Shown in pieces: positions 1 to 50,141 of a stretch of 62,117 nucleotides of DNA. The notes under the pieces were generated by a model that made no database searches, was not told the DNA's origin, and saw only the letters and a list, made by a program, of their open reading frames with translations. Position numbers and translations under genes: made by a program. Position 1 is the stretch's first letter; every line of letters begins with the position of its first letter. This DNA comes from Bacteroidales bacterium. GTDB lineage: Bacteria; Bacteroidota; Bacteroidia; Bacteroidales; UBA932. The stretch is taken from positions 1-62,117 of the forward strand of contig JAGCCX010000062.1 of NCBI GenBank assembly GCA_017651465.1, read 5' to 3'.

Positions 1-261
1 AGGGCCAAGGTCGGCCGCCGCCAGTCCTGACACTGCCGTACGTTGAAGAAGGCCAAGGTCGGCCGCCGCCTGCCCCGACGTCGAGTATCCTGCAAGGGGA
101 CATTCTGACATAGGGCCGAAGTCGAGGATGGTGCCGTTGTCGGCAATGCGGAGCCAGGCGTCGGCGATGACTCTCAGCTCCGACATTTCGGCACCTTGCT
201 TGCGCTCGATCCCCTCGGGCACTATGCCTATCAATTCCCCGATATTGATGATGGTTGTCAT
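1..261 (-). CDS. hutI: Imidazolonepropionase HutI, N-terminal part (cut by window edge)
   Basis: Only the first 87 codons are present; the gene continues past position 1. HutI hydrolyses 4-imidazolone-5-propanoate to N-formiminoglutamate, the third step of histidine breakdown. The start (ATG at 259-261) overlaps the hutH stop as ATGA. Residues 1-55 look like a normal Bacteroidota HutI N-terminus (INIGEL, then DAWLRIADNGTILDFGP). From about residue 62 the reading frame enters an unusual stretch with two AAADLG motifs 16 residues apart, where other HutI proteins go directly to the strand before the metal-binding HTH motif. This is an in-frame repeat insertion (see the repeat feature at 3-76). 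The identification rests on the N-terminus plus operon context, because the catalytic domain is outside the window. Confidence 0.85.
   Translation of the reverse strand, partial: MTTIINIGELIGIVPEGIERKQGAEMSELRVIADAWLRIADNGTILDFGPMSECPLAGYSTSGQAAADLGLLQRTAVSGLAAADLGP
3..76. repeat. Two copies of a 48-bp-period in-frame repeat inside hutI
   Basis: On the plus strand GGCCAAGGTCGGCCGCCGCC occurs at 3-22 and again, identically, at 51-70, a period of exactly 48 bp. On the hutI coding strand each copy gives AAADLG. The core matches the repeat in the GH105 gene at 34011-34154 (GGCCAAAGTCGGCC, also with 48-bp period) and, inverted, in uxaA at 20701. The array may extend beyond the left edge. Confidence 0.8.
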
Positions 262-19645: not shown

Positions 19646-21184
19646 TTACAATGTTACTCCGCTCTTGAATATGGCGATTTCGCGGTAGCCGTTCTTTTCG
19701 TTGTTCACCGCCTCTCCGCTTGCTGCGGCGAGCACGAAGTCGATGAACCGTTTGCTTACGGAATCCATACCCTCATCCTGGGCAAGCACCCCGGCGTTGA
19801 AGTCGATCCAGCCAGGTTTGCCCTCGTACAGAGGGGTGTTGGTGGAAATCTTCATAGTGGGGACGAAGCTCCCGAAGGGGGTGCCGCGGCCGGTAGTGAA
19901 GAGCACGATCTGGCAACCCGAAGCAGCAAGGGCAGTCGAAGCCACCAGGTCGTTGCCGGGTGCGGACAGCAAGTTCAAACCTTTGACGCTCAGGCGTTCA
20001 CCGTACTTGAGCACACCGCGCACGATGCTCTTGCCGCACTTCTGCGTGCAGCCGAGGCTCTTCTCTTCAAGTGTGCTGATGCCTCCGGCCTTGTTGCCGG
20101 GAGAGGGGTTCTCGTATACCGGCATACCCTGCTTGATGAAGTATTCCTTGAAGTCGTTGATGAGCGCGACGGTTTTGTCAAAAGTAGCCTCGTCCTGGCA
20201 GCGGTTCATAAGTATGGTTTCGGCCCCGAACATCTCGGGAACTTCGGTGAGGACGGTGGTGCCGCCCTGTGCCACGATCCAGTCGGAAAATACCCCGAGC
20301 AGGGGATTGGCGGTGATGCCGCTCAGGCCGTCGGAGCCGCCGCATTTAAGGCCCACGCGCAGTTCGCTCACGGGAACTTCCTCACGCACGTCCTTGCTTG
20401 CAACTGCGTATATCTCACGGAGTTGCTGAAGTCCGTACTCTATTTCGTCGCTTACTTTCTGGGTGACGAACATTCGTACCCGGCTCTCGTCAACGGGGCC
20501 CACAAGCTCACGGAAGGCATCGAGCTGATTGTTCTCGCAACCCAGGCTCACCACCAGCACGCCGCCGGCGTTGGGGTGATGCACCATATCGGCGAGCACT
20601 GTGCGCGTATTCTCGTGGTCGTCGCCAAGCTGCGAGCAGCCGTAGTTATGAGGGAATGCAATTATGGCATCGACGGAGCTGCCGGAAGAGACAGCGTCCT
20701 GCCGACTTTGGCCCTTACGAACAGGAGACAGGAGGCTGTCTCCTCCGGCGGCGAGCTCTTCCTTGAAGCGGCGTACGATTTCCTCGCAGATGCCGTTCAC
20801 GCACCCTACGGTGGGGATGACCCATATCTGGTTGCGGATACCCACCTGGCCGTCGGCGCGGCGGAAACCACGGAAACTGCGCTTCTGCGCCGCCTCGGGA
20901 ATCTCTACGAGGGCGGGGGAGAAGCTATAGTCCAGCAGACCCTCGAGATTGGTCTTGATACAACTGTGGTCGACCATCGTGCCTGCCTGCGCAGGGCGGG
21001 TGACGTGGCCGATGGGAAAGCCGTACTTGACGACATTCTGCCCCTCGGCGAGGTCGTCCAGGACAATCTTATGCCCTCTGGGTATGTCGGTCTTGAGGCT
21101 TACCCCTTCTACGCATTCACCTGCCTGCAGGTCCTGCAGGGCCACGGCTACGTTGTCATCGGGATTTATCTTTATGTACTTCAT
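19646..21184 (-). CDS. uxaA: Altronate dehydratase UxaA, with an in-frame repeat insertion
   Basis: 512 aa. It dehydrates D-altronate to KDG. The N-terminal SAF domain (residues ~1-100, MKYIKINPDDNVAVAL) and the catalytic domain with IWVIPTVGCVNG (~121), HNYGCSQLGDDHENTRT (~176) and LKCGGSDGLSGITANP (~281) are all present, so the enzyme should be active. Residues ~145-168 ([20 protein letters not shown]) are absent from E. coli UxaA, where the helix before HTFGC is nearly continuous. This insert is the inverted copy of the repeat seen in the GH105 gene. The gene follows uxaC, with a REP-like sequence in the 46-bp gap. Confidence 0.95.
   Translation of the reverse strand: MKYIKINPDDNVAVALQDLQAGECVEGVSLKTDIPRGHKIVLDDLAEGQNVVKYGFPIGHVTRPAQAGTMVDHSCIKTNLEGLLDYSFSPALVEIPEAAQKRSFRGFRRADGQVGIRNQIWVIPTVGCVNGICEEIVRRFKEELAAGGDSLLSPVRKGQSRQDAVSSGSSVDAIIAFPHNYGCSQLGDDHENTRTVLADMVHHPNAGGVLVVSLGCENNQLDAFRELVGPVDESRVRMFVTQKVSDEIEYGLQQLREIYAVASKDVREEVPVSELRVGLKCGGSDGLSGITANPLLGVFSDWIVAQGGTTVLTEVPEMFGAETILMNRCQDEATFDKTVALINDFKEYFIKQGMPVYENPSPGNKAGGISTLEEKSLGCTQKCGKSIVRGVLKYGERLSVKGLNLLSAPGNDLVASTALAASGCQIVLFTTGRGTPFGSFVPTMKISTNTPLYEGKPGWIDFNAGVLAQDEGMDSVSKRFIDFVLAAASGEAVNNEKNGYREIAIFKSGVTL
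20681..20749. repeat. Palindromic repeat element inserted in uxaA
   Basis: Plus strand: left arm GCCGGAAGAGACAGC (20681-20695) and right arm GCTGTCTCCTCCGGC (20735-20749) are complementary at 14 of 15 positions. Between them, 20701-20727 begins GCCGACTTTGGCCCTTACGA and is identical over 27 bp to the complement of 33999-34025 in the GH105 gene, although the arms differ. The total of 69 bp encodes an extra loop in UxaA. The frame stays open even though the element is inverted relative to the other copies. Confidence 0.8.
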
Positions 21185-31133: not shown

Positions 31134-33004
31134 TGAGATTGTTTTTGGTTAGTATGAATAATATAGTGTAGATACATTTCCAGGTTGGTATATCGCCCGT
31201 GCTTGTCGAGCGTCTTTGCCGGACCGTCGGAAGGGTTGCCTTTTGACAGGCCGAATTCATCTTCGAACCAGTCGGGAAGACCGTCGCCGTCGCTGTCGCG
31301 CACGCGTCCCCTCTGGGCGTCGGTGGCGCTGTATTCGGGCCAGCCGCCCACCTGGGTCTGGGAATCCAGGATGCCCTTGTTGCCTGCGGCAGCCGAACCG
31401 GCTTTGATTTCGTTGACTATGCGGGTATCGACCGCATCGCGCTCAAGGCTTGCTCCGGCCTGGGCGAGTACGGTTGTGTATGCGTCGGAGGCACTCTGCG
31501 AATTGACCTTGCTGCCGTTTACGGAGATGTCAAAAGCCTGCTGGGATTTGATCTCCCCGGAAGGGGTGCCATTGGGCTGCAGGCCGTTCCAATTGTCGGA
31601 GTTCACACTGGCAAGGAGGCTCTTCTGGCTGGCATTGAGAGCGGGACAGTCGGAGTCGAAATAGTTGCCGCTCAAGTGGAACTTGCCCCATACGCCCTTG
31701 CTGTTCTTGTTGGAACCGTCATCGGCGTTGGGAGAGAAGATGCGGTTGACCAGGGAATTCTTGGTGGCGGTGGAAGGCCCCGGTTTGTAGTAGTTGTTGA
31801 TGAAGTTGAACGATCCGCCTTCTCCTGCGTAACCGCCGTTGGTGGGGCCCCAGTTATAGAATACATTGTTCACCAGTTCCGTCTTTTCGCCGTCGGGATT
31901 GCCGGTATAGCGGCTGCCACAGAGACGCGGGGTACGTGAGGTGTGGCTGGCGATGATATTGTGGGAGAAAGTGGCGCCGTGTCCGCCCCATATGCCGCCG
32001 TATCCGTGCGCCCCCTTGGGGTGGAAGGAATTGTTGAGGCTCTCTGCGAGTATGCAGTACTGCATAGTGAAGCGGTCGTTGTCGTAGAATGAGGCCACCT
32101 CGTCGATGCACCAGCTCATAGAGCAGTGGTCGATGATGATGTCGCTTTGTTCGCGGCCCCAGATGCAGTCTTCCATAGGGATGGCGGAAAGGTTCTTCCA
32201 TTGCTCCTCGGTCATACTGGCCTTGTACGCCTTTGCTCCCTCGTCTCCCATCCTGAAGCGTATGTAGCGGATGATAACGTTGTCGGCCTTGACTTGAACG
32301 GAATAGTCGCTCAAGCAGATTCCGTCTCCGGGCGCCGTCTGGCCGGCGATGGTGACGTCATTTCTGTTGATTACCAAGTTGGAGTTCAACTTTATGCGGC
32401 CTGCTACATCGAAGACGATGACGCGGGCGCCGCTCTGGCCGAGTGCCCACCGCAGGGATCCCTCACCGTTGTCGTTCAGATTAGTTACGTGATAAACCTT
32501 GCCTCCGCGGCCACCAGTAGTAAACATTCCGCAGCCTTCGGCGCCGGGGAAGGCCCGGGCAATTCCGTCCTCCTCTGATTCGGGAATGCCGAACTCCTCA
32601 TAGCGGGAGCTGTCGCCTGAGGGCGGATTGTCAGGGGTCTGTTCTTCGGCCTTGTCGGTGGAGACGTTGAGTGTCGAAGACCAGGAAGAGTTGCCTCCTG
32701 CAGCTACACTGCGCACGTTGAAGCTGTATTCCGTGCCGGGAGTGAGGTTGGAGATGACCACGTTGCGGGTTGTGACGTTGCCGCTCTGCTCTTCGGAACC
32801 TCCCTTCAGGAGCCGCCAGTCATACGACTCGGCTCCGGCTACTGCCGACCACTGGAAGGTGAGCGAGGTTTCGGTGCTGGAGTGAAGCGCCAGTCCGGAA
32901 GGAGTGTCGGGGACCTTGGGGGTTTCCGGTCCCTTCTCCTCTTCGCCGCAGGCGGTCAGGATGAGCGCCAGAGCGCTCAGGAATATGGATGTCAGTCTCT
33001 TCAT
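31130..33004 (-). CDS. Fn3-PL1 pectate lyase lipoprotein
   Basis: 624 aa. The lipobox [10 protein letters not shown] is followed by a fibronectin type III domain (~33-117, [19 protein letters not shown]) and a PL1-type beta-helix from ~145 ([20 protein letters not shown], the usual start of this lyase group). Helix features include [18 protein letters not shown] (~218) and [18 protein letters not shown] (~297), with the conserved DHCS turn. The C-terminus carries a [16 protein letters not shown] segment, a thrombospondin type-3/calcium-binding-like motif typical of the group. Probably extracellular eliminative cleavage of homogalacturonan. It overlaps both neighbours by ATGA. Confidence 0.9.
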
Positions 33005-34365
33005 AACTTCTCGTATTCGATAGAGGCCCAGATGAGGGGGCCTATGCCCTTGGGGTCGTTCGCGCGTATGCGCTCGTGTATGTAATAATCGTAAGTGCCG
33101 CTTCGGTTTTCTTTGCCGCCGAGGCCTGCCACTTCGCAGCAGCGGTTGAGGTTCACCAGGCCCTTCGAATCTACGGAGACGAAGGTCTTGAGGAGCCTGC
33201 GGTAACGGTCTTTGGATGCTGTTACGGAGTAGTCCTTGATCCAGCCGTTGCGTGTGCCTTTCAGGAGGACGTAAGTGAACATCGCGCTTGCGCTTGCCTC
33301 AAGGTAATTGCCCTCGGCTCCGGGGCGGTCAAGGACCTGGTACCACATCCGGCTTTGGGGATCGGCGAATTCCCTTACCGTAAGCAGGAGCTGGGAGAGC
33401 ATATCTATTAGTTTCTGCTGCAGTTCACCTTCGGGTATCCAGGGGATTACATCGGCCAGGGCCATAGCATACCAGCCGGAGGCGCGGCCCCAGGCGTGTT
33501 CCGACTGGCCGGTGGAGGGGTCGCACCAGAACATTGAGTGCGAAGCGTCCCAGGCGTGGCGGAGGAGTCTGGTGTCGGGGTCGTAGCATTTGTCCCAGGC
33601 GAGGGTGAACTGTTTGACTATATCTTGATAGTTGGCTGCTTTGAGGGAGTCGGGGACGTAACGTGATGTGTATTCGGCATAGAAGGGTTCTACCATATAG
33701 AGGCCGTCAAGCCACATTTGCTCGGGGTAGATTTGCTTGTGCCAGAAGCCTCCTTCGGGGGTGCGGGGCATTTCGCATATCTGCTCGTAGAGTTTGTCCA
33801 TCGCCAGTCTGTACTTTTCTTTTCCGGTGATGTCGTAGAGCCGAAAGAGTGTTTTGCCGGGGCAGATGTGGTCGGAGGAGTAGTTGGACTTTTTGTACTT
33901 TCCTCCTATGGTTCCGGTTGAATCGATGATGGCGTCGTACCAGTCGTCAACGTACTTTATTATAGAGATGGCATCCGGTGCTACTGCTGCGCAGGCCTCC
34001 TGTTCGTAAGGGCCAAAGTCGGCCTGCGCAGCATCCGCGCCGGATGTCTGTCTTAAATGGCCAAAGTCGGCCTGCGCAGCATCCTCGCCGGAAACCTGCC
34101 CAGAATGGCCAAAGTCGGCCTGCGCAGCATCCTCGCCAGATACCTGCCCAGAAGGGCTGCATTCAGTTGCCAGGGCGGCGTCGAGCAGGGCTTTTAGTTC
34201 CAGGCCGGTGGTGTAGTTCCATTTGAGATTGCCTTCCTGGCCGTCGATGTAGGAAGCCTGGGGGCAGCGGACCATCTCGGAGCGTACCAGGCGTGAAGAC
34301 AGCGGAGCCTTGGCCGTGCAGGCGGTCAAGGCTAGTGCGAGCAATATGATGTTCAGTTGCTTCAT
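33001..34365 (-). CDS. GH105 unsaturated rhamnogalacturonyl/galacturonyl hydrolase, with a three-unit repeat insertion
   Basis: 454 aa lipoprotein (lipobox [10 protein letters not shown]). GH105 enzymes hydrolyse the unsaturated uronate from lyase products, yielding 5-keto-4-deoxyuronate for KduI. Family blocks are [13 protein letters not shown] (~50), [20 protein letters not shown] (~159), [18 protein letters not shown] (~222, with the catalytic Asp region), [13 protein letters not shown] and [18 protein letters not shown]. Residues ~71-127 are foreign to the family: three 16-residue units of the type [16 protein letters not shown], lying between the first helix and the next conserved block ([13 protein letters not shown]). 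The insertion keeps the frame and probably forms a disordered loop. ATGA overlaps on both sides. Confidence 0.93.
33986..34032. repeat. 47-bp palindrome at the 3' end of the GH105 insertion
   Basis: GCTGCGCAGGCC (33986-33997) and GGCCTGCGCAGC (34021-34032) are perfectly complementary 12-bp arms around a 23-nt spacer that starts TCCTGTTCGTAAGGGCC. The spacer and part of the right arm make up the 27-bp core also found, inverted, in uxaA with different arms. The right arm is part of the first 48-bp tandem unit. Confidence 0.85.
34011..34154. repeat. Three tandem 48-bp units inside the GH105 gene
   Basis: Units at 34011-34058, 34059-34106 and 34107-34154, each starting GGCCAAAGTCGGCCTGCGCA. Units 2 and 3 are nearly identical, and unit 1 diverges in its second half. 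On the coding strand they give 16-residue repeats containing DAAQADFG. The period is the same as that of the hutI repeat at 3-76. Confidence 0.92.
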
Positions 34366-50020: not shown

Positions 50021-50041
50021 AAAACGAAAAAAGGGAAAGCT
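50006..50041. terminator. Perfect 15-bp inverted repeat after the SRP RNA
   Basis: AGCTTTCCCTTTTTT (50006-50020) and AAAAAAGGGAAAGCT (50027-50041) are fully complementary around a 6-nt loop. The SRP RNA transcript (minus strand) runs into it directly. The U-tract is inside the stem, which is unusual, so termination is likely but not certain. The left arm is also the start of the third repeat copy. Confidence 0.6.
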
Positions 50042-50128
50042 ATGTACATCGCACCGCTACAACCTCATACCCTTGCTGCCTTCCGGCCCTGGGGGAATTT
50101 TGAGGGAGCTGGTCGTGTACGACTTTCC
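50042..50128 (-). ncRNA. ffs: Small SRP RNA (4.5S-like, bacterial signal recognition particle)
   Basis: Read on the minus strand, the stretch contains CCCCCAGGGCCGGAAGGCAG followed by CAAGGGTATGAGG and ending in GCGGTGCGATGTAC. The GGCCGGAAGGCAGCAAGG part is the SRP RNA apical domain (the asymmetric loop and GGAA tetraloop region that bind Ffh). The 5' side (CGACCAGCTCCCTC) can pair with the 3' side to close the long hairpin. A TATCTTTG promoter box lies at 50134-50141, which places the 5' end near 50128. The exact ends are estimated. The RNA guides co-translational targeting with Ffh and FtsY. Confidence 0.88.
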
Positions 50129-50133
50129 CTATG

Positions 50134-50141
50134 CAAAGATA
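50134..50141 (-). promoter_or_regulatory. -7 promoter box of the SRP RNA gene
   Basis: The minus strand reads TATCTTTG, exact TAnnTTTG, between the cdd stop and the start of the SRP RNA. The -33 region would fall within the 3' end of cdd. Confidence 0.6.

Follow-up and report, generated by a model that had tools for sequence, protein, structure and literature searches.

Rickettsia palindromic elements (RPEs), to which the WPEs of Wolbachia are a related kind, are elements for which we know of no mover, and in the described bacterial palindromic elements known to us the repeated sequence includes the arms. Copies of MITEs have terminal inverted-repeat sequence in common. Integron attC sites are recognised by structure as a folded single strand of variable sequence and keep their ends, whereas the element described here keeps its loop. 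RPEs have been described as short palindromes of several families that keep the reading frame of their host genes, which encode unrelated and often conserved proteins (PMC10969869, PMC2229807). By analogy, they appear to be the system nearest in behaviour to the present element, which is also found in frame in conserved protein genes, as shown by Pfam-named hosts and by empty orthologs. The two are likened by description, and a length of about 105-150 bp and terminal inverted repeats are given for RPEs, whereas the present element is about 67-74 bp long with a constant loop and variable arms. Prokaryotic MITEs (Correia, ERIC, RUP and others) are likewise small, transposase-less, dispersed and in some cases intragenic (PMC2229807, PMC10969869), but it is in the terminal arms that the present copies differ, and a shared terminal inverted repeat is not found. 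Long inverted repeats likewise occur inside translated genes of Nematomorpha mitochondria (PMC6649704), where the arms encode conserved host protein and, in the part of that source available, a common core is not mentioned, whereas here the arms are the insert. A search of the open-access literature by title and start of abstract returned no description of a constant-loop, variable-stem element. As far as known, what is new in the gene-embedded palindromic elements of these gut Bacteroidales is that the arms vary while loop and fold are fixed.

The window, meaning the whole 62,117-nt stretch of DNA analysed, makes up contig 59 in a draft genome of 2.5 Mb. Its longest exact match was 27 nt, positions 20701-20727 being identical to the reverse complement of 33997-34023. 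The sequence-only reading had found this inverted identity, and was right about the match itself, but placed the second member at 33999-34025, two bases off. The constant unit is 23 nt (20704-20726), and the remaining 4 of the 27 nt are the first stem pairs, which coincide at the two loci. Searched with up to 3 mismatches, a 22-nt core pattern was found at two places in the window, and 100 shuffles held no match.

The first copy, at 20680-20750, lies in uxaA (altronate dehydratase; 19646-21184, minus strand, Pfam GD_AH_second and GD_AH_C), and was scored at 73.7 bits by the covariance model R1 (E 1e-17). The strand that reads GACTTTGGCCCTTACGAACAGGA, called the GA strand below and inferred to fold, is the plus strand at this copy, while the gene is on the other strand. 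On that plus strand the constant 23-nt core occupies 20704-20726, as located by pattern search and copy comparison, and is flanked by two locus-specific arms recognised by their complementarity to each other, the 5' arm at 20682-20703 and the 3' arm at 20727-20748. Counted outward from 20703/20727, 22 of 26 positions are complementary; the complementarity first read here was therefore real, and the stem is longer than the 15 positions stated for it. The frame is open across the element, as had been noted, and 18 residues are translated through.

The second copy, at 33974-34044 (R1 68.7 bits, E 2.4e-16), lies in a GH88/GH105-type gene (33001-34365, minus strand), named GH105 at first and matched by Pfam to Glyco_hydro_88. 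Its GA strand is the minus strand, as is the gene, and its core was placed by pattern search at 33998-34020, minus. The arms pair at 12 of 12 positions (33986-33997 with 34021-34032), just as originally reported, and a repeat finder lengthens them to 26 nt, of which 85% is complementary. Repeat finding also showed three units spaced 48 bp at 34011-34154, with no strand assigned, each consisting of a core end plus one arm, which are partial duplications of the element. A probable third copy at 1-36, minus strand, is ended within the core by the contig end (R1 17.1 bits, E 0.03, truncated). It is repeated 48 bp further on with a partial core (51-79), and its host, assigned by eye, is presumably a hutI-type gene. 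Partial tandem duplications containing part of the element were thus seen in the window at 34011-34154 and 3-79 (48 bp) and also at L047/c27 (54 bp) and L010 (51 bp), and suggest slippage or template switching at the hairpin. At gathering thresholds no Rfam family matched the element in the window. The window also holds a Bacteroidales small SRP RNA at 50029-50136, minus strand (Rfam RF04183, 106.8 bits).

Sixty-six copies with at least 8 of 20 stem pairs were collected from this genome and from related Bacteroidales, and a dispersed repeat in both orientations, as proposed from the window, was borne out. With an E limit of 1, R1 matched the genome itself 13 times, including one weak hit (E 0.38), and the truncated copy at 1-36 adds to these. 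Under stricter filters, R1 matched 19 of 400 genomes of the genus and 10 of 398 genomes of the family, the latter all from one of 25 genera, and so far the element has been found in one genus. An exact-pattern scan of genome contigs returned 27 stretches, of which 26 were from Bacteroidales or Bacteroidia, many of them ruminant-derived; the other, from Hyphomicrobiales (L060), has no arms and was taken as a chance match. Viral contigs gave 0 exact core matches.

The arms are about 21-24 bp long, complementary within a locus and different between loci. Over the first 16 arm positions, the median number paired was 13.5 in 46 unfiltered copies, compared with a mean of 6.0 in 2070 swapped-arm controls, so that further copies do have complementary arms, contrary to the condition that had been named as refuting the reading. 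Seven of the 46 scored 10 or lower (L060, L061, L009, L010_1636, L013, L034 and L050); by eye, the arms of L061 fit after a one-base bulge, and L009, L010_1636, L013, L034 and L050 are decayed, duplicated or partly paired. The paired fraction stayed above 0.7 up to position 21 except at positions 3-4, was 0.5-0.6 at 22-24, and was near background beyond. Covariation was examined in 37 of the 46 copies, leaving out L009, L060 and L010_1636, whose arms are broken or absent, together with L007 (bulge), L010_1585, L013, L034, L045 and L050, some of them poorly paired. In this selected set the covariation value was 0.907 compared with 0.207 in shuffles, 23 of 24 stem pairs were altered on both sides, and 89.1% of cells were paired (52.2% when shuffled, at most 47% in slid versions), a favourable figure because poorly paired copies had been left out; the count over 46 copies carries no such filter.

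Core positions 4 and 20 also covary, as T-A, C-G or A-T. In variants from other genomes TTGGCCCTTACGAA is almost constant while the surrounding letters vary, and in the core variant GATTTT...CATGA the inner C-G pair is broken without compensation. In class B (10 copies) the apex is replaced by an extra hairpin, itself covarying, and the copies retain GACTTTG plus, with single changes, GTAGCAGGA. The class B model R2, run with strict filters on 393 genomes of the order, matched only the genome studied here. A further core type, class C (GACTTTTCCCCAAGTTTTCAGGA and similar), was seen in L156, L131 and L169 on the same stem plan. In the relative G277, L144, L145 and L168 agree in the loop and in the proximal stem over about 13 bp but not in the distal stem, and about 29 bp of L144 are paired with no mismatch.

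The stem-pattern, flank-tag and folding analyses used 47 of the 66 copies, after 13 relatives or duplicates were dropped by arm homology and 6 for having fewer than 13 of 20 pairs. The arms had been called unrelated between loci; they are indeed locus-specific (mean identity between loci 0.319, compared with 0.283 for shuffled arms), but they have a purine/pyrimidine pattern in common. Of the 47 copies, 39, 40 and 37 have a purine at stem positions 13, 14 and 15, and 45 have one at position 3; a pyrimidine stands at positions 6, 7, 8 and 9 in 34, 38, 36 and 32 of them. Such a pattern fits common descent with the structure kept, or groove-level contact. What is constant across copies is the folded shape and not the arm sequence, and the proposal of a constant loop with locus-specific stems under selection on structure held up in the swapped-arm control, the covariation, the strand-biased mismatches and the stem pattern.

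The strand bias was measured in 43 of the 46 copies, with gene orientation taken from the longest open frame; only some hosts are confirmed, the orientation of two uxaA copies was corrected by hand, and five copies are undecided. At stem positions 3-4, tandem G.A mismatches numbered 27 on the GA strand and 0 on the other (p 1.5e-8), and at positions 5-12 there were 24 G.U on the GA strand and 5 on the other (p 5e-4), p values in which related copies are not independent. The bias is absent at positions 13-21 (16 and 19). The GA strand was also predicted to be the more stable in 34 of the 47 representatives with RNA parameters and in 37 with DNA parameters. Over positions 5-22, genes taken to transcribe the opposite strand gave G.U counts of 18:6 in favour of the GA strand, and the remaining genes gave 21:16. 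Since the bias tracks the GA strand in both gene groups, selection on host mRNA is disfavoured, which leaves single-stranded DNA or a separate RNA. The mismatch statistics thus mark the GA strand, closed by its long stem, as the relevant one, apparently whichever way the host gene reads.

Nearly all copies lie within open frames, most of them long. The hosts are housekeeping genes, and those named by Pfam include TsaD-family, GH3, GH92, DHquinase/EPSP synthase, Mur ligase, amidohydrolase, HD, GD_AH and Glyco_hydro_88 proteins, and we take hosts among them to be, more narrowly, TsaB, MurE and HutI. Among eight host proteins checked together, one, membrane-like, had no Pfam family. The element is present in both orientations. 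Five of the 6 core frames serve in the longest open frames, 3 of these 5 in hosts named by Pfam; a conserved peptide is thereby ruled out as what the element provides.

The empty sites showed how the element arrives. Orthologs of uxaA were found in 44 of 101 genomes, and of the 30 loci read, those of G000 and G047 are filled and 28 are empty. Compared with the locus L073, uxaA is longer by a net 60 nt in G000 and by 66 nt in G047. A gain of 66 nt is likewise found in the HD-domain gene of G277, of which all 29 orthologs read are empty. The empty orthologs have neither arms nor core, indicating that whole hairpins were inserted and that the arms were not copied from the target. Arms derived from the target are thus ruled out for uxaA and the HD gene, and the suggestion that arms are regenerated from the flanks of each new locus fails; recent copies, moreover, bring their own arms along. 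That one arm is re-copied from the other by template switching is likely to be part of the answer. In the uxaA tree the element-bearing genomes fall in one shallow clade that lacks internal resolution, together with genomes whose uxaA is empty, and insertion events are uncountable there.

Other short inserts were seen at the same places. In-frame GTCAT...ATCT palindromes occur at the element's spot in uxaA (L079, L083, L084, L088) and in the Glyco_hydro_88 gene (L182, L183, L186, L190, L191, L195, L202), and L086 has a palindrome with GGTTCGACAGGCTCACC at the element's protein spot. The GTCAT...ATCT palindromes resemble the CGTC repeats as they are described in the available part of PMC3733652. 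These other palindromes at the uxaA and Glyco_hydro_88 sites indicate that the spots tolerate insertions generally. A second hypervariable spot of UxaA, near residue 96, carries other repeat-like inserts in L078, L081, L082, L085, L094, L095 and L099, the one in L082 and L085 being GGNAPRPLGVQG-like.

Recent dispersal was seen in two relatives. G277 has two copies in which a 74-nt stretch (29 nt ahead of the core and 22 nt behind it) is the same letter for letter and whose flanks are unrelated, which argues for mobility. In G152 seven dispersed class B copies have near-identical stems and mostly unrelated flanks, those of L150/L151 and of the two in L154 being somewhat more alike. At the membrane-like gene with two sites, the arm likeness within a genome was 32/44 in CAMJBH, 29/44 in G000 and 24/44 in G023, compared with an average of 14.5 of 44 (sd 4.5) for unrelated arm pairs. 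No consistent target duplication was found, and none is evident between L142 and L143; by eye, L144 has a possible ATCGA repeat.

Flank comparison gave 15 clusters among the 66 copies, which were then split by hand into 16 sites. In 15 close pairs with homologous arms, the arms differ at 125 of 630 positions (20%) and the core at 2 of 345 (0.6%); close pairs were separated from the rest by an arm identity of 26/42, so the arm divergence of the close set is bounded by this choice. The close set takes in c45/c51, which are duplicated genes of one genome. In the other 33 pairs, among them c04/c24 with arms that fit only when gapped, arm identity is 42% and core divergence 5.7%. With one hand-picked pair per site, 73 of 336 arm positions differ, compared with 2 of 184 core positions (p 4e-13). 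In ortholog comparison, positions changed in both arms numbered 32 where 14.6 were expected, and 19 of them keep pairing, while 51 single changes break pairs, so that pairing is not absolute. With pair orientation set by hand from flank matches, the orientation is inverted in 1 of 15 homologous-arm pairs, compared with 19 of 33 unrelated-arm pairs (p 0.001, the pairs being non-independent). In c03/c19 the loop is inverted and the arms are identical at 14/21 and 14/21. Most simply read, copies with unrelated arms entered one tolerant spot independently of each other, and only rarely is a loop inverted in place, as in c03/c19.

Taken together, we consider it fairly probable that the element is a mobile, RPE-like palindromic hairpin read by its loop and fold, with arms kept by structural selection plus template switching. 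What inserts is, as the empty sites show, the whole hairpin (arm, core, arm; about 67-74 bp here). According to this model, it enters tolerant loops of proteins in frame, and new insertions would hit the same permissive sites repeatedly and in either orientation. It would be mobilised as a single strand, either single-stranded DNA or GA-strand RNA, by a putative trans-acting factor that may read the loop, the tandem G.A pairs and the stem shape. Core and fold are conserved while the arm sequence drifts with compensation. Selection on the fold of the GA strand in active lineages would keep the arms complementary, and template switching between the arms during replication would homogenise them, at times invert the loop, and be the source of paired changes. 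Template switching covers the compensation, the inversion and the duplications but not the core or the strand bias, which is why the two processes are joined. Against this view stand a core that is more conserved at shared sites than a mobile, otherwise neutral element needs, the missing recombinase link at the 20 RAYT loci read, the lack of a consistent target duplication, the 51 single changes that break pairs, the uncompensated core variant and the absence of G.U bias at stem positions 13-21, to which come the orientation of genes by longest open frame, the non-independence of related copies and the shallow uxaA tree.

A stronger version of the model is put forward only tentatively, as a possibility we rate well short of even. 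It holds that the element moves as a folded GA strand through an undescribed enzyme and is recognised purely by its fold and constant loop, the stem being almost any sequence. Class B would then belong to one system with the other copies, holding fixed no more than a few pairs and the non-Watson-Crick residues.

The best-surviving rival, which we nevertheless regard as unlikely, is that the palindromes are kept by mutation alone: template switching would re-perfect the stem and invert the spacer, with no structural selection. Such effects are known, as template switching has been described to homogenise the arms of inverted repeats and invert their spacers in coding genes (PMC8604942), and to give rise to hairpin stems and preserve them (PMC8794818). 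The inverted loop of c03/c19, the partial tandem duplications at several loci and the perfect stem of about 29 bp in L144 are all in line with it. The template-switch palindromes of these sources, as far as the available parts describe them, are local mutations of host sequence, whereas here a constant core is inserted at many loci. Mutation alone leaves unexplained the conservation of the core relative to the arms at shared sites, the G.U/G.A strand bias and the purine/pyrimidine pattern of the stem.

It is quite unlikely that the element is a resident functional element, for example a docking hairpin for protein or RNA, of which each copy is selected locally and mobility is rare and old. Conservation of the core at orthologous sites across species would suit such a role, as would the finding of the same genes hit in several species. 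Against it are the patchy presence (19 of the 400 genus genomes), the two orientations and 5 of 6 core frames in use, the recent dispersal in G277 and G152, and the other short palindromes at the same spots in relatives.

We consider it improbable that the element is an ordinary REP or REPtron of a RAYT (Y1/HUH) transposase. RAYTs have been described to act on single-stranded hairpins, and the CGTC/GTAG REPs with RAYT REPtrons are likewise palindromic, dispersed and sometimes intragenic, with heterogeneous stems (PMC3733652). In the available part of that source, the CGTC repeats have stems of 8-9 bp and loops of 4-5 nt, whereas here the stem is about 21-24 bp and the conserved loop 23 nt. Y1/RAYT genes were found in 13 of 14 element-bearing genomes, compared with 9 of 14 element-free genomes (p 0.16). 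The genome studied here has RAYT-type genes, and hairpins lie near 17 of 20 RAYT loci from six genomes, in a permissive search that has no chance control; at the same 20 loci, R1 (E up to 1) gave 0 matches, so that the linked REP-associated tyrosine transposase suggested at the outset did not appear. These genes (L215-L234) mostly have hairpins of their own, and the similar RAYTs of G000 (L216) and G023 (L221) have the same stem with differing loop letters. Among the 47 copies, on the two sides beside the stem, GTAG was found in 4 and 1 and CGTC in 3 and 0, with about 3.1 expected for each, and no position outside the stem is conserved. GACG, however, was enriched on one side, in 10 of 47 on the 5' side and 5 of 47 on the other (about 3.1 expected). 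Nine of those 10, including L142 and L143, start 20-26 nt before the core. GACG is the complement of the CGTC tag, and it precedes the stem, the reverse of that tag; it possibly marks the element's end. As for a retro-element using an RVT_1 reverse transcriptase, the element-bearing drafts G000 (95% complete) and G023 (97%) gave 0 RVT_1 matches, and RVT_1 was found in 4 of 14 element-bearing and 8 of 14 element-free draft genomes, which speaks against it. That the element is a product of chance or assembly is extremely improbable, since the same elements stand at orthologous sites in separately assembled genomes, the shuffles held no core match and the unfiltered arm pairing far exceeds the swapped control, even though these are draft metagenome assemblies and one contig ends within a core.

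In all, the 66 copies form a natural data set on which structural selection may be told apart from template-switch correction. The RPE-like hairpin points to a putative mobility enzyme that reads the shape of a hairpin, and its mechanism of mobility is possibly new. The in-frame copies also suggest that Mur ligase, the TsaD-family protein and similar enzymes of these gut Bacteroidales tolerate about 20 foreign residues.
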